From positions 1 through 46,530 of the forward strand of contig JAPOPM010000142.1 in the NCBI GenBank assembly GCA_026712905.1: a DNA stretch of 46,530 bases, read 5' to 3'. A program made the position numbers and the translations under genes. This stretch comes from Deltaproteobacteria bacterium (GTDB lineage Bacteria; Desulfobacterota; Binatia; UBA9968; JAJDTQ01). The notes under the pieces are model-generated. The model searched no databases. It saw nothing but the letters and a program-made list of their open reading frames with translations, and was not told the DNA's origin. Below, piece after piece: positions 24,277-45,382 of this stretch (position 1 is the stretch's first letter; every line of letters starts with the position of its first letter).

Positions 24277-24377
24277 GGCGTTCCTCCTCGTGGGCTGTAC
24301 CATATACCAAACGCCGGACGTGACTCAATATGGACTGTTCCCGGCGCCGCCCCACCACCCCTGGATTCCCGCTTTCC

Positions 24378-24517
24378 AGGCTGTGTCAAAACTGATGGGC
24401 AGAGCCCCGCGAGTCGTCATTCCCGCGGAAGCGGGAATCCACCTTCCCGCTTCCGCGGGAATGACGACTCGCGGGGCTGGCGCCAATTCTTGTCCGGACG
24501 ACGTTTTGACACAGCCT
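24378..24517. repeat. MITE-like element A: 15-16 bp terminal inverted repeats around a 35-bp perfect inverted repeat
   Basis: The termini are AGGCTGTGTCAAAAC (24378-24392) and its exact complement (24503-24517); with the C at 24377 the repeat is 16 bp. Inside, arms at 24403-24437 and 24444-24478 are perfect inverted copies with a 6-base loop. Each arm contains the palindrome ATTCCCGC-GGAA-GCGGGAAT. The element sits in the loop of a further palindrome: ATTCCCGC-TTTC on the left and TTCC-GCGGGAAT on the right, consistent with a 4-base target duplication with one mismatch. No coding capacity. The right end (24479-24518) is nearly identical (three differences) to 43243-43282. Confidence 0.85.
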
Positions 24518-24561
24518 GTTCCGCGGGAATTACAGGAAGGGCGTCAGCGCCATCCTGTGTC

Positions 24562-30476: not shown

Positions 30477-30944
30477 ATGGACAAGAAGATCAAGTTTCGC
30501 GTCAACGGGACGGAGCACGAGCTTGAGGTGCCCACCAACCGGCTGTTGGTGGACATGCTCCGCTACGACCTGGGCCTCACGGGAACCAAGGAAGGGTGCA
30601 GCGTGGGTGTTTGCGGCGCGTGCACGGTGCTCATCGACGGTGAGATGGTGAGTTCGTGCCTGGCCCTGGCGGTGTTCGCCGACGGCAGTGACGTCACGAC
30701 GGTGGAGGGACTCGCCCAGGACGGCGAGCTTCATCCGGTGCAGCAGAGCTTCATCCGCTACGGCGGTTTCCAGTGCGGCATCTGCACCCCCGGCCAAGTG
30801 GTGGCGGCCAAGGCGCTGCTGGACCAGAACCCCCGGCCCAACGAGGAAGAGATCAAGGACTGGATGATGGGCAACCTGTGCCGTTGCACCGGCTACTACA
30901 AGATCATCGAGTCCATCGAGAAGGCGCACGAGTTCGCCAAGTAG
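30477..30944 (+). CDS. coxS: CO/xanthine-dehydrogenase-type small iron-sulfur subunit (CoxS-like)
   Basis: 155 residues with GAGAGGGAG just before the ATG. Two [2Fe-2S] clusters are predicted: plant-type ferredoxin ligands C41, C46, C49 and C61, and the helical-domain ligands C100, C103, C135 and C137 (QCGICTPG and LCRCTGYY). In molybdenum hydroxylases this subunit passes electrons between the molybdopterin centre and FAD. It is followed 11 bases later by the FAD subunit. The molybdopterin large subunit is not in the operon; instead coxG follows coxM and a terminator closes the unit. Confidence 0.93.
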   Translation: MDKKIKFRVNGTEHELEVPTNRLLVDMLRYDLGLTGTKEGCSVGVCGACTVLIDGEMVSSCLALAVFADGSDVTTVEGLAQDGELHPVQQSFIRYGGFQCGICTPGQVVAAKALLDQNPRPNEEEIKDWMMGNLCRCTGYYKIIESIEKAHEFAK

Positions 30945-30955
30945 GGAGTTGAGGA

Positions 30956-31822
30956 ATGATCGCTTTTGACTACCGCACTCCGGGGAGCCTGGAAGAGGCC
31001 TACGCGGACCTCAAGGAAGCCGGTTCCGACGGCAAGATCATCGCCGGCGGCACCGCGCTCGTGATCATGATGAAGCAGCAGCTCCTGCAGCCGAGCTGCG
31101 TCATCAGCCTGCGCAACGTGTCCGGGTTGAGCGAAATATCGGAGAACAATGGCAGCGTGCGCATCGGCGGCCTCGTGAGCCACGCCCATCTGGACGCGTC
31201 GGACGTGGTCCAGGGCAAGCTCCCGGTGCTGGGCGCCACCTACCACCACGTGGCCACGCAGCGGGTTCGCACCATGGCTACCGTGGGCGGGGGCCTGGCC
31301 CACGCCGATCCCAACCAGGACCCGCCGCCGACCTTCATCGCCCTGGGCGCCAGCTTCGAGCTGGGTTCCGCGGGCGGCAGCCGCTCGGTGGCGGCCGAGG
31401 ACTTCTTCAGCGACTACTACGAGACCGTGCTGGAGCCGGAGGAGATCGTGACCGGCGTGAGCGTGCCGCTCATGGCGGCCAACAGTGGCGCCGCCTACCT
31501 CAAGTTCCTGCCGCGCTCGGCCGACGACTACGCCACCGTCAGCGCGGCCGCGGTGGTGACGCTGGACGCCGCCAAGAGCACCATCCAGGACGTGCGCATC
31601 GCCATGGGCAGCGTTAACACCACGCCCGTGCGCGCCACGGCTTCCGAGGACGTGCTTCGCGGACAGCCGGTGAAGGCCGAGGGCCTGCGCGAAGCCGGCG
31701 AGAAGGCCAAGGAGCACACCGACCCGGTGAGCGACTTCCGCGGCTCGGGCTCCTACAAGACACAGATGGCCGCGGTGTTCGTCCGGCGCGCGCTTGAAGC
31801 CGCCATCGCCGACGCATCCTGA
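30956..31822 (+). CDS. coxM: FAD-binding medium subunit of a molybdenum hydroxylase (CoxM-like)
   Basis: 288 residues. The FAD motifs of the family are present: AGGT (30-33) and TVGGGLAHADPNQD (109-122). C-terminal CO-dehydrogenase flavoprotein blocks include YETVLEPEEIVTGVSVP and FLPRSADDYATVSAAA. The two conserved glycine-rich motifs show that the cofactor site is intact. It accepts electrons from the small subunit. The enzyme's substrate is set by the missing large subunit, so CO, xanthine, nicotinate or aldehyde oxidation cannot be told apart here. Confidence 0.92.
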   Translation: MIAFDYRTPGSLEEAYADLKEAGSDGKIIAGGTALVIMMKQQLLQPSCVISLRNVSGLSEISENNGSVRIGGLVSHAHLDASDVVQGKLPVLGATYHHVATQRVRTMATVGGGLAHADPNQDPPPTFIALGASFELGSAGGSRSVAAEDFFSDYYETVLEPEEIVTGVSVPLMAANSGAAYLKFLPRSADDYATVSAAAVVTLDAAKSTIQDVRIAMGSVNTTPVRATASEDVLRGQPVKAEGLREAGEKAKEHTDPVSDFRGSGSYKTQMAAVFVRRALEAAIADAS

Positions 31823-33583: not shown

Positions 33584-33627
33584 GCGGCAGGTTGATTGAC
33601 GTGCACTGTCGCGGGTTCCCGGAATGC

Positions 33628-33778
33628 AGGCCGTGTCAAAACACCATCTGCGAGGCAACGAACCCCTGAATCGTCATTCCCGCGAAAGCGGGAATCCAGG
33701 GGTGGGGCGGAGCCTAACACTAACGGGCATGTTGCCCCACTCCACCCCGCCTGGATTCCCGCTTTCGCGGGAATGACG
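33628..33778. repeat. MITE-like element B, one-ended copy with inverted arms
   Basis: A single terminal repeat, AGGCCGTGTCAAAAC (33628-33642), is followed by inverted arms at about 33672-33700 and 33750-33778. The arms are perfect over 29 bp. In this copy both arms read GCGAAAGC/GCTTTCGC instead of the GGAA form of the other copies, so arms match within a copy but differ between copies. The second terminal repeat is missing. It lies between the enolase-family gene and the end of the convergent mcrC. Confidence 0.7.
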
Positions 33779-39705: not shown

Positions 39706-39785
39706 GGGTTCTTCCTCCCGAGGGCCGCGAGGCCGTGTCAAACCCGCGCGGCATGAACACTATGAATAGGTCATTCCCGCTTGCC

Positions 39786-40075
39786 AGGCTGTGTCAAGAC
39801 CCGTGAGGCGGGACCCTACGGAACGTCATTCCCGCGGAAGCGGCTGTGTCAAGACTCGTGAGCCTACGGTCCCCCGAAGAGTCATTCCCGCGGAAGCGGG
39901 AATCCAGGGGCGGTGGTGGGGCACGACAGGGGCGTTTCTCCGCCTCCCCACCCCTGGATTCCCGCTTCCGCGGGAATGACGTTCCGTTATGTGCGTGCCT
40001 CACGAGTTTGACACAGCCGCTTCCGCGGGAATGACGACTCGATGGGGCTCTGCCTCATCAGCCTTGACACAGCCT
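39786..40075. repeat. MITE-like element C (outer copy of a nested pair), with exact 4-base duplication TTGC
   Basis: The termini are AGGCTGTGTCAAGAC (39786-39800) and GCCTTGACACAGCCT (40061-40075), one mismatch. Flanks are ATTCCCGC-TTGC on the left and TTGC-ACGGGGATGACG on the right, so the loop tetramer TTGC is duplicated. The outer element's own arms, CGTCATTCCCGCGGAAGCG (39824-39842) and its complement (40018-40036), enclose the inner copy at 39843-40017. Another solitary AGGCCGTGTCAAAC lies at 39730-39743. Confidence 0.8.
39843..40017. repeat. Inner nested copy within element C
   Basis: Begins GCTGTGTCAAGACTCGTGAG and ends CTCACGAGTTTGACACAGC, complementary except for one inserted base. 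Its inverted arms (39881-39910 and 39951-39980) are 30 bp and match perfectly. The surrounding arms of the outer copy are perfect complements of each other. Confidence 0.75.
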
Positions 40076-40103
40076 GTTGCACGGGGATGACGTACTCGTA
40101 GCA

Positions 40104-41085: not shown

Positions 41086-42987
41086 TCACGGACGCTTTCT
41101 CAGCGCCGCGACATAAGACTCGCGCGCCGCCGCCACCTCGGTCCGGTCCGACACCTCGGGGACGGCCACGTCCCACCAGTGGCCTCCGGCCTGAGTGCCG
41201 GCCAGTGGGTCGGTGTCGATGACGATCACGGAGGTCCGCTCGGCGGAGCGGGCCTCGACCAGGGAGGCTTCAAGCGACTCGATACCGTCCACGTGCGTCG
41301 CGATGGCTCCCATGGAAGCGGCATGGGCGGCGAAATCGATGGCCGACGGCGTCTGGTGCCGGGCGGTGTCCAGCAAGTTGTTGAAGCTGGCGCCCCCGGT
41401 GGCCAGTTGCAGCCGGTTGATGCAGCCGAACCCCCGGTTGTCCAGCACCACGACGGTGAGCTTGAGGCTCAGCATGACGCTGGTGGCCAGCTCCGAGTTC
41501 ATCATCATGTACGACCCGTCGCCCACCACCACGACCACGTCGGCGTCCGGGCGCGCCATCTTGACTCCCAGGCCGCCGGCGATCTCGTAGCCCATGCAGG
41601 AGTACCCGTATTCCAGGTGGTAGTCGCCGCGGCGGGGCGAGCGCCACAGCTTGTGCAGCTCGCCGGGCAGGCCGCCGGCGGCGCACACGACGATGCCGTT
41701 GTCGGGCATGTTTCGCTGCACGGCACCGATGACCTGGGCGTCCGTGGGCAGGGCGTCACCCCCGGTTGCCGCGGTGACGGCGTCGACGGCGCGGTCCCAA
41801 TCGCCCTTGAGCGCCGCGTGCGCCGGCGTAACAAGGCGATCGTCTGGATCGCGGTTGGGAGCGGCGGAAGGCGTAATCCGGCGTGGCTTGAACTCCTCGC
41901 CCGGGGTGGCAACGACCCGATCCTCCAGCACGGCGTCCAGTTCCTCCAGGGTCGTCCTGGCGTCGCCCACCACGGCCACGGCGTCATGCTTGGTGGCGTC
42001 GAACGCCGCCGCGTTGATGGTGAGCAGCCTCACGTCCGGGTTCTGGAACAGGCTCCAGGAGCCGGTGGTGAAGTCTTGCAGGCGGGTTCCCACCGCGAGG
42101 ATCAGGTCGGCGGTCCGGGCGATCGCGTTGGCGCTCTCGGCGCCGGTGACACCGATGGCGCCCACGCTGCACGGGTGTGTCCACGGCAGCGCCGACTTGC
42201 CCGCTTGGGTCTCGGCCACCGGGATGCCGTGGCGCTCGGCGAACGCGGCCAGTTTCTCGCACGCATCCGAGTAGTGCACGCCGCCGCCGGCGATGACGAG
42301 CGGCGCCTTGGCGGCCCGCAGGGCTTCCGCCGCGCGCGCCAGTTCCCCGGTGTCCGGCCGTTGCCGGCGCATGATCCAGGCCCGCGGCTCGAAGAACGTT
42401 TCGGGGTAGTCGTACGCTTCGGCCTGGACGTCCTGGCACAGGGAGAGGGTCACCGGGCCGCACCCGGCCGGGTCGATGAGCGTCGCCATGGCGCGCGGCA
42501 GGGCCGTGAGCAGTTGCTCCGGGCGGGTGATGCGGTCGAAGTAACGGCATACCGGGCGGAAGCAGTCATTGGCGCTGACGGTGCCGTCCGCGAAGTCTTC
42601 CACCTGCTGCAGCACGGGGTCCGGGAGCCGGTTGGCGAACACGTCCCCGGGAAGGAACAGCACCGGCAGGCGGTTCACGTGCGCCACCGCCGCGGCCGTC
42701 ACCATGTTGGTGGCGCCGGGGCCGATGGAGGAGGTCACCGCCATGGCGCGCTTCCGATTGTTGGCCTTGGCGAAGGCGATGGCCGCGTGCGCCATACCCT
42801 GCTCGTTGTGGCCGCGCCACGTGGGCAGCGCGTCGCCCGCCTGATACAGTGCCTCGCCCAGCCCGGCCACGTTGCCGTGCCCGAAGATTGCCCACACCCC
42901 GGCCACGAAGCGCTCGCCCTCCTCGTTGGTCTGGCCGCTCAGGTAGCGCACCAGCGCCTGCGCCGCCGTCATTCGGATCGTGCTCAT
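41086..42987 (-). CDS. iolD: 3D-(3,5/4)-trihydroxycyclohexane-1,2-dione acylhydrolase IolD (ThDP-dependent)
   Basis: 633 residues. Opens the ring of the dione to give 5-deoxy-glucuronate. The N-terminal MTAAQALVRYLSGQ and FGHGNVAGLGEAL are characteristic. The middle domain has WTHPCSVGAIGVTGAESAN. The ThDP motif begins at GDGSYMMMNSEL and ends at DNRGFGCINRLQ. The active-site glutamate region is GHNEQGMAHAA. The complete length and all domains are present. Repeat element D lies between it and iolC. Confidence 0.95.
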   Translation of the reverse strand: MSTIRMTAAQALVRYLSGQTNEEGERFVAGVWAIFGHGNVAGLGEALYQAGDALPTWRGHNEQGMAHAAIAFAKANNRKRAMAVTSSIGPGATNMVTAAAVAHVNRLPVLFLPGDVFANRLPDPVLQQVEDFADGTVSANDCFRPVCRYFDRITRPEQLLTALPRAMATLIDPAGCGPVTLSLCQDVQAEAYDYPETFFEPRAWIMRRQRPDTGELARAAEALRAAKAPLVIAGGGVHYSDACEKLAAFAERHGIPVAETQAGKSALPWTHPCSVGAIGVTGAESANAIARTADLILAVGTRLQDFTTGSWSLFQNPDVRLLTINAAAFDATKHDAVAVVGDARTTLEELDAVLEDRVVATPGEEFKPRRITPSAAPNRDPDDRLVTPAHAALKGDWDRAVDAVTAATGGDALPTDAQVIGAVQRNMPDNGIVVCAAGGLPGELHKLWRSPRRGDYHLEYGYSCMGYEIAGGLGVKMARPDADVVVVVGDGSYMMMNSELATSVMLSLKLTVVVLDNRGFGCINRLQLATGGASFNNLLDTARHQTPSAIDFAAHAASMGAIATHVDGIESLEASLVEARSAERTSVIVIDTDPLAGTQAGGHWWDVAVPEVSDRTEVAAARESYVAALRKRP

Positions 42988-43078
42988 GGGTTGTTTGTCC
43001 TTTATCCGTCATTCCCGCGGCTCGGCCTGGTAATGACTCCCAACGCAACGACGTATCCAAACGTCATTCCCGCGGAAC

Positions 43079-43281
43079 AGAGTGTGTCAAAACTCCGCTT
43101 GGCCACGAGACGGCACCGCCACCCCGATTCGTCATTCCCGCGGAAGCGGGAATCCAGGGGTGGCGAGGCGGGGAAACGCCCCGTAGTGCCCCACCACCAC
43201 CCCTGGATTCCCGCTTCCGCGGGAATGACGAATCGGGGGGTTGGCACCGATTCTTGCCCGGACGACGTTTTGACACAGCCT
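43079..43281. repeat. MITE-like element D with a 39-bp perfect inverted repeat and duplicated GGAA
   Basis: The termini are AGAGTGTGTCAAAAC (43079-43093) and GTTTTGACACAGCCT (43267-43281), two mismatches. The inner arms at 43125-43163 and 43197-43235 are perfect inverted copies. Left flank CGTCATTCCCGC-GGAA and right flank GGAA-GCGGGAATGACG rebuild one intact palindrome once a GGAA duplicate is removed. The right end is shared with element A. Confidence 0.85.
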
Positions 43282-43390
43282 GGGAAGCGGGAATGACGGC
43301 ATGGGGCAACGGTGCCATTCCGTGTCCACGCAGAGCCCTGACGCACCCTTTTTGGGGGCATGACGGATGTACTCTGTCGTAGCCATTGGG

Positions 43391-45382
43391 CTACCGTCCG
43401 TCGGCCCGCGCTTGGTCCCAGGCGTGGCATAGGCGTGCGAAGTTCTCCGCCATGCGTGTCACCGCTTCCTGATCATCCATACGGTCCGCCAGCCATGCGC
43501 GCGCTACCTTTCCGAATATCGTACGCCCGACGGCAAATCCTTTCACCATTTCGTGCCTGGCCGCCGCCCGGAAGCTTGTCTGCAATTCCTCGAACGGCGC
43601 GTCCAGTCCCAGCACTACGATGCCGCGGCAGTGCGGGTCGTGGGCTTCGATGGCGGCGCACGCCCGTTGCCAGGCGGTGTCCGACACCATGGGCTCCAGC
43701 TTCCACCAGTCGGGGAAGACCCCGATCGTGTAGAACCGCTCGATGACGGCGGCCGTGGTGGATTCGTCCACGGGTCCGAACTTCGACGGGATGATCTCCA
43801 TCAGGAAGTCCAGGGCGTTGGTCCGGGCAGCCTCGGCCAACCGTTTGACCGTGGCCTCCTGGTCGGCGCGCAGTCCCTCCGGGTCGTCCGGGCGGTAGAG
43901 GCAGAGCGCCTTCACCACGTGCTCGGCGGGCCATTCCGCCAGCGCCGAGCCGAAGTCGTCGCCGATCTCCAGCCTGAGCGGACGAGACCCGGGCCGTTCC
44001 ACCGGGCGTCCGATCCACAGCCCGGTGCCCGCCGCCGCGTATAGCGCGTCGCGGCCCAACCGGCCGTCGCACAGGATCCCGTAGCCGTCGCGCCCGTCCG
44101 CGACCCGGAGCGCCGCCTCCAGGCACAGGCGCTTGAATGCGCCGATGCGCTCCGTCCCGGCGCCGCCTTGCCCAGGCGTGGCGCCGATGGTGTGCGGCGT
44201 GGAACCGCCGTGTTCGGTCCCGGCGTCACCGTGCTCCGCTCCGGCGTTGTATTCCCGCGCCATGTCTTCAAACTGCGAACGGTGATCGAAGGCGAACACG
44301 TGCATGACGGGCCAGACCCTGGAGCGGTTGGTGGCCCAGTGCACCTGTTCCAGGCGTGCGTCGTGGCGCACCGCCGGGGTCGACGGCCCGTGCTCCAGGA
44401 AGTCGCGCAGCTCCACCTCGCTGGGATACGCCGGGGTGCAGCCGTGGCGCGATACCGCCAGCGCGCCGCAGGCGTTGGCGATGCGCAGGGTCCCGGCCCA
44501 GTCCTCGCCGGTGAGCCAGCCCTTGAGGAGCCCGGCCATGAAGCCGTCGCCCGCGCCGAGCACGTTGAACACCTCCACCGCGAACGCTTCGCCGCTCACC
44601 CCGTCGTCGAGGCTCGGGGGGATCGGTCCCTCGAAGGCGGTGGCGCCCCCGGCCCCGCGCTTGCATACCAGCGTCGCCTCCGACACCTCGCGCACCCGGG
44701 CCAGCGCGGCCACGGTGTCGGGCGCGCCGCCGGCGATGTGGAACTCCTCTTCGGTGCCCACGATGACGTCGAACCGCCCCAGGGTGCTCTGCAGCTTGGC
44801 GGTGACGGCGGTCGACTCGATGAAACGGTTCTCGCCGTCGCCGTGCCCGGACAGGCCCCACAGGTTGGGCCGGTAGTCGAGGTCGAGGACGGTCTTGGCC
44901 CCGGACGCCCGCGCCAGGTCCAGCGCCCGCAGGGTGGCGGCCTCGGTGCGGGGATGGGACAGGTGGGTGCCGGAAGCGAGCACGCAGCGTGCCTCGGCGA
45001 TGAAGTCCGGGTCGATGTCGTCGGGCGACAGCGCCATGTCGGCGCAGTTCTCGCGGTAGAAGATCAGCGGAAAGCGTTCCTGGTCGCGGATGCCCAGCAG
45101 CACCAGGGCGGTGAGGCGCTCCGGGTCGGTGATGACCCCGCGTACGTCCACGCCCTCCGCGCGCAACTGCTCGCGGATGAACCGGCCCATGTGCTCGTCG
45201 CCCACCCGGGTGATGACCGCGGACCGCAACCCCAGCCGCGCGGCGCCGGCGGCGGTGTTGGTGGGCGAGCCGCCGATGTACTTGCGGAACGAGCGCATGT
45301 CCTCCAGGCGCCCGCCCACCTGAGCGCCGTAGAGGTCCACCGACGACCGCCCGATGGCGATGACGTCCAGTGTCCGGCTCAC
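43391..45382 (-). CDS. iolC: 5-dehydro-2-deoxygluconokinase fused to DUF2090 aldolase (IolC-DUF2090)
   Basis: 663 residues. Residues about 1-330 are a PfkB-family kinase: DVIAIGRSSVDLYGAQ, RKYIGGSPTNTAAGAARLG, and the anion-hole/catalytic NVLGAGDGFMAGLLKGW. It phosphorylates 5-dehydro-2-deoxygluconate. Residues about 345-663 form DUF2090, thought to act as the following aldolase (VFAFDHRSQFEDMAREYN; EIIPSKFGP; WWKLEPM). Cleavage would give dihydroxyacetone phosphate and malonate semialdehyde. Between AREYN and FKRLC there is an unusual low-complexity insert of about 35 residues rich in Gly, Thr, His and Glu (GAEHGDAGTEHGG). The gene directly follows a degraded ABC-transporter remnant. Confidence 0.92.
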   Translation of the reverse strand: MSRTLDVIAIGRSSVDLYGAQVGGRLEDMRSFRKYIGGSPTNTAAGAARLGLRSAVITRVGDEHMGRFIREQLRAEGVDVRGVITDPERLTALVLLGIRDQERFPLIFYRENCADMALSPDDIDPDFIAEARCVLASGTHLSHPRTEAATLRALDLARASGAKTVLDLDYRPNLWGLSGHGDGENRFIESTAVTAKLQSTLGRFDVIVGTEEEFHIAGGAPDTVAALARVREVSEATLVCKRGAGGATAFEGPIPPSLDDGVSGEAFAVEVFNVLGAGDGFMAGLLKGWLTGEDWAGTLRIANACGALAVSRHGCTPAYPSEVELRDFLEHGPSTPAVRHDARLEQVHWATNRSRVWPVMHVFAFDHRSQFEDMAREYNAGAEHGDAGTEHGGSTPHTIGATPGQGGAGTERIGAFKRLCLEAALRVADGRDGYGILCDGRLGRDALYAAAGTGLWIGRPVERPGSRPLRLEIGDDFGSALAEWPAEHVVKALCLYRPDDPEGLRADQEATVKRLAEAARTNALDFLMEIIPSKFGPVDESTTAAVIERFYTIGVFPDWWKLEPMVSDTAWQRACAAIEAHDPHCRGIVVLGLDAPFEELQTSFRAAARHEMVKGFAVGRTIFGKVARAWLADRMDDQEAVTRMAENFARLCHAWDQARADGR

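Follow-up and report, generated by a model that had tools for sequence, protein, structure and literature searches.

A short non-coding repeat in the genome of a Candidatus Binatia bacterium very probably represents a non-autonomous MITE-like element that is bounded by 16-bp ends (CAGGCTGTGTCAAAAC), uses the 4-nt loop of the CGTC-1 REP as its insertion site, duplicates this loop and nests within its own copies. The sequences directly show the ends and their position in the loop, the duplication, empty sites with an intact REP, nested copies and the inverted REP pair inside the element. The repeat was identified in a window of 46,530 nt (the whole stretch of DNA that was analyzed) from a 4.8-Mb Candidatus Binatia MAG (G000). 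All element-carrying genomes are MAGs, most of them fragmented, and the counts for G000 are based on pattern searches and individually retrieved sequence stretches.

Element D and Its Target

Element D contains no gene, and REPs are the only features inside its 16-bp inverted ends (table 1). When the two flanks are joined they form CGTCATTCCCGC-GGAA-GCGGGAATGACG. A previous sequence-only reading of the window had located the element at 43079-43281, which is the correct place but falls one base short at each end; the claims that GGAA is present on both sides inside a split palindrome and that the arms hold the target palindrome both agree with the present coordinates. On either side lies a gene encoded on the minus strand, one for a thiamine-pyrophosphate enzyme at 41086-42987 and the other for a PfkB/DUF2090 protein at 43391-45382. 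Folded as single-stranded DNA, the whole region forms one long hairpin (-101 kcal/mol, z -14.7). Within the window, GTGTCAAAAC (≤1 mismatch) occurs 8 times compared with 1.3 expected occurrences and CGTCATTCCCGC 15 times compared with 0.7, and neither count was reached in any of 100 shuffles. Because both counts exceed all 100 shuffles and G000 contains 66 ends matching CNGNSTGTGTCAAAAC but none matching the reversed control pattern, the pattern of element D is not a product of chance.

Table 1. Features of element D and of three further element loci within the window.
Feature	Position	Strand	Sequence or remark
Element D, MITE-like insertion	43078..43282	.	205 bp
Left terminal inverted repeat	43078..43093	+	CAGAGTGTGTCAAAAC
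Right terminal inverted repeat	43267..43282	-	GTTTTGACACAGCCTG on + strand
Duplicated loop, left copy	43074..43077	+	GGAA
Duplicated loop, right copy	43283..43286	+	GGAA
Interrupted target palindrome, left half	43062..43073	+	CGTCATTCCCGC
Interrupted target palindrome, right half	43287..43298	-	GCGGGAATGACG on + strand
Internal CGTC-1 REP	43130..43157	+	CGTCATTCCCGC-GGAA-GCGGGAATCCAG
Second internal REP of element D, inverted	43203..43230	-	Completes REPIN-like pair
One-armed copy	33627..33778	+	Left end (CAGGCCGTGTCAAAAC) and REP pair; right end missing
Two nested layers around one REP pair	39785..40076	.	Outer ends near 39785 and 40076; inner CGGCTGTGTCAAGAC-type ends at ~39840 and ~40021
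Second complete copy in REP loop	24361..24534	.	Copy 24377-24518; halves 24361-24372 and 24523-24534; loops TTTC/TTCC

The internal repeat and the target are the same sequence, CGTC-ATTCCCGC-GNAA-GCGGGAAT-CCA, and display the CGTC tag, 8-bp stem, 4-nt loop and CCA tail of a CGTC-1 REP; the hairpin folds as expected. CGTC-1 REPs are a published repeat type, to which the Neisseria dRS3 repeats belong, and are characterized by a CGTC tag, an 8-bp stem (ATTCCCGC), a 4-nt loop, a CCA tail and an occurrence mostly in head-to-head pairs (PMC3733652). The target had been described as a palindrome; a perfect palindrome is present at the reported site and sometimes elsewhere, but in most cases the target is the asymmetric CGTC-1 REP (CGTC...CCA). 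A pattern search identified 338 exact intact copies with a GNAA loop in G000, many of them arranged as inverted pairs ~75 nt apart that form REPIN-like units, and the nine genomes of the genus contain 632, 527, 338, 98, 76, 52, 9, 5 and 1 copies. A REP variant with a 28-nt loop (GAAAGCTTGCCCTCGACCCCGATCGGGG) was observed at four loci in G000, G007 and G005 (L007, L166, L193 and L195).

Architecture and Distribution of the Element Family

Overall, ~61 element loci were identified in G000, and the elements share the properties of MITEs in being short, non-coding and multicopy with 16-bp terminal inverted repeats (TIRs). Complete copies are mostly 142-228 bp in length and nested copies reach ~280 bp. 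Read from the outside inwards, an element consists of a half REP, 4 nt, the TIR, a spacer of ~24, 31 or 36 nt and a REP, followed by ~46 nt, the inverted REP, a spacer, the TIR, 4 nt and the second half REP. Half REPs were scored at exact ends in G000, with up to 2 mismatches allowed in 12. One is located exactly 4 nt outside the end in 55 of the 66 cases, 37 of which are perfect, and at offsets of 3, 5 and 22 nt in one case each (half-REP background rate 0.1%). The 11 ends that lack a half REP at 2 mismatches include several that look decayed. Conservation drops sharply at two points, beyond the half REP on the outer side and immediately past the TIR on the inner side.

Within the genus, six out of nine genomes contain the exact 16-mer; the 139 other genomes scanned in the class (148 in total) do not. 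When 84,980 species genomes were scanned for exact matches, those listed were Candidatus Binatia records only, and each named record listed for the loop-plus-end pattern (JAJDXX, JAJEAI and OX638375) is a Candidatus Binatia MAG.

Several other repeats and insertions were observed within or next to element arms and REPs. A repeat that follows directly after GTCATT (GATATGAAAATAAAATCTTGTTCAATGATTTCTGGTAGTTACGGAATCCCGCTAC) lies beside REPs in sister species (L169, L186, L187, L193 and L100) and also at the place in G005 that is orthologous to the window site (L108). Two arms in G000 (L002:1-160 in G000:C5 and L036 at the end of G000:C160) are broken at the same GTCATT by a longer shared sequence starting with TGTATGTTGAGAGAACCTCTCAGATCGGCC, for which no Rfam match was found at the gathering threshold. 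A different insertion sequence with the ends GAGCCACTTGCAAAACC occupies the same position in two element arms of G005 (L326 and L343 in G005:C59 and C244), and in G004 (L062, G004:C1, about 1864200) an element end is separated from a REP pair by a tandem array of a 22-23-bp unit (CCCATCGTTCCCGCACCTCCTC).

Target Duplication and Empty Orthologous Sites

Paired ends were compared in all genomes read (n = 50). The flanking 4-mers are identical in 22 pairs and differ by one base in 10, and the identity over all positions (124 out of 200) is higher than in shuffled pairings (76 ± 11; none of 10,000 shuffles as high). Matching flanks include the rare 4-mers GCAA/GCAA (L103) and ATTC/ATTC (L041). In 15 of the 50 pairs (13 R/R and 2 Y/Y) both flanking loops face the same way, an arrangement that is no simple duplication and needs recombination or two events. 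The sequence-only reading had proposed a genome-wide search for the terminal repeat and its flanks, with all insertions lying in palindrome loops between 4-base duplications; the half palindromes at 55 of the 66 ends and the perfect duplications in 22 of the 50 pairs bear out both features as general to the family, though not for every copy.

The flanks of 19 loci were used to locate the orthologous places in G003, G005 and G007. At L051 (G000:C223) all three states are found: G005 contains no REP, G003 contains an intact REP, and in G000 two nested layers interrupt the REP in its loop. The complete copy at 24.4 kb of the window corresponds to neither REP nor element in G003, a variant REP with a longer loop in G005 and an intact REP in G007. 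Joined flanks rebuild the REP that the relatives hold intact at these two loci, in agreement with the proposed insertion into a palindrome loop. A further copy (L041, G000:C175) is not located in a REP but is flanked by ATTC at either end, and the orthologous site in G003 is uninterrupted. The site of the two nested layers in the window is empty in G003. Next to the RAYT gene (see below), G002, G008 and G004 carry nothing, G003 carries one REP, and G000, G005 and G007 carry increasingly complex insertions. An intact perfect palindrome was not found in the relatives at the site orthologous to element D, where G005 has a bare REP pair and G003, G002 and G001 have none.

The predicted self-targeted nesting was recovered as tandem nested arms, in which the first REP of one arm encloses another arm, in at least 8 of the 61 G000 loci; 34 of the loci are one-armed. 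Full uncollapsed nests persist at three loci (L021, L066 and L118).

Transposase Candidates and the RAYT Gene

The PF13751 (IS1182-type) and PF01609 (DDE_Tnp_1) loci of the nine mostly fragmented MAGs yielded no autonomous transposon with the ends of the element, so that the suggested check for a full-length transposon came out negative within this set, and none of the element ends tested has a transposase gene of its own behind it. By its ends the element does not belong to the IS1182 family; the IS1182 ends in this genus are CTAG-GAGTCTG-like and unrelated. An end in G005 without a REP behind it holds a different insertion sequence with the ends GAGCCACTTGCAAAACCC.

The sole HUH-type candidate is a single-copy RAYT gene (337 aa, L116:853-1866, G000:C13, about 30535-31548) with a Y1_Tnp domain (PF01797, E 3.2e-14), an HFH motif (HUH) and a weak DnaA-like C-terminus. 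The earlier statement that no transposase is present to explain the insertion is answered in part: none was found for the element's own ends, but a gene that could drive the palindrome does exist. CGTC-1 REPs are present on both flanks of the RAYT gene in three genomes (G000, G005 and G007) and on a single flank in G003 (L115, L116, L117 and L118), and elements also flank it in the former three. In G002, G004 and G006 the tyrosine of RYVHMNPVR, presumably the catalytic residue, is replaced by histidine and no REPs flank the gene. It is plausible that RAYT is the motor of the CGTC-1 REP pairs that flank its gene. HUH/Y1 transposases are not expected to generate 4-bp duplications, and the element was for this reason left unassigned to RAYT; the 4-bp duplication at its ends suggests a DDE transposase.

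Proposed Mechanism and Alternative Explanations

A cut-and-paste (DDE-type) transposase would act in trans on the TIRs and may select the loop of an extruded or single-stranded REP hairpin. Since every copy carries two REPs, each insertion consumes one target and supplies two, and new copies therefore insert into old ones and build nested stacks. Nested REP pairs (~100 bp, direct copies a short distance apart) could recombine and delete one side, leaving the one-armed and tandem-arm forms. The REP pairs themselves may behave as REPINs that are spread by the single-copy RAYT. There is a fair, though slightly less than even, chance that two mobile systems share one palindrome, where RAYT spreads CGTC REP pairs and the TIR element lands in the REP loop and carries the pair as cargo; with the loop as landing site and the pair as cargo, amplification of the element would enlarge its own target pool.

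The half REP, loop and TIR could instead be a single long conserved end that never inserted into a REP, which would account for the CGTCATTCCCGC-GRAA string found directly outside the TIR in most arms. This is highly improbable, as 14 out of 55 G000 arms carry the other REP half with the loop in reverse orientation (CTGGATTCCCGC-TTYC), joined flanks give a whole REP, and two loci (L041 and L060) terminate at CAGG/CCTG with no normal REP outside; the long end was rejected on the basis of the intact-REP empty sites in sister species. It is also very unlikely that RAYT moves the entire composite together with its TIR arms, in the manner of a large REPIN. Its single-copy gene is surrounded by REPs and elements in G000, G005 and G007, and a link to TIRs has been described for RAYTs whose C-terminus is DnaA-like (PMC3733652, PMC6006769), but armless REP pairs far outnumber armed ones, and in L060 (in G002) the element ends enclose an unrelated interior without the usual REP pair and are flanked by a GAAA duplication. 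The 4-bp duplications, which are not expected of HUH/Y1 transposases, argue against it as well.

An unlikely, somewhat less remote explanation dispenses with a dedicated transposase: the tips of REP hairpins would be cut (e.g., by SbcCD) and repaired from other copies, and arms would be copied by recombination between REP halves. Such a process would fit the free combination of arms with spacers of ~24, 31 and 36 nt, the high frequency of one-armed copies (34 of the 61 G000 loci) and the same-facing loops of the 15 pairs described above. It leaves unexplained why the duplication is exactly 4 nt long and includes matching rare 4-mers, why the TIR boundary is sharp, and how a copy came to lie at the non-REP site L041 with its empty orthologue. 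Transposition of a MITE-like element into the REP loop remains the favored reading.

Relation to Known Systems and Implications

It is established that insertion sequences hit REPs at a fixed point: ISPsy8, ISRm22, IS1397, ISKpn1 and ISPpu9/10 do so, and ISPsy8 and ISRm22 insert at the REP symmetry axis with direct repeats of 3 and 6 bp (PMC1525189). The element resembles these in its fixed point of insertion and short direct repeat, but they encode a transposase and are reported in host REPs, whereas the element is ~200 bp, non-coding, makes a 4-bp duplication, has CGTC-1 REPs as its target and carries two of these. The fixed break position that defines a type 1 association in the sense of Tobes and Pareja is found at 55 of the 66 ends, compared with 100% in the definition. 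The short, non-coding form, TIRs, target duplication and high copy number are shared with bacterial MITEs such as Correia/nemis, RUP and MITEAba12, unlike the choice of target, which here is the loop of the palindrome that the element carries. As in REPINs with RAYT, inverted REP pairs occur by the hundreds per genome at fairly constant spacing together with a single-copy RAYT, but many pairs here are wrapped in the TIR arms of a second mobile element. A literature search of open-access papers identified no description of a MITE-like element that targets its own carried REP and self-nests, and no paper containing the end sequence was found.

The family clearly exemplifies a mobile element whose target is multiplied along with it, so that it nests within itself; intermediate states are preserved in sister species, and the family offers a natural test of hairpin-loop recognition by transposases. 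It also bears on the statement that CGTC REPs, including dRS3 of Neisseria, lack a dedicated transposase, as no tyrosine transposase gene flanked by CGTC REPs was found in the previous study (PMC3733652), in contrast to the RAYT gene flanked on both sides in three species and on one side in a fourth. If two mobile systems do share the palindrome, a CGTC REP family would for the first time have a candidate for a dedicated transposase.
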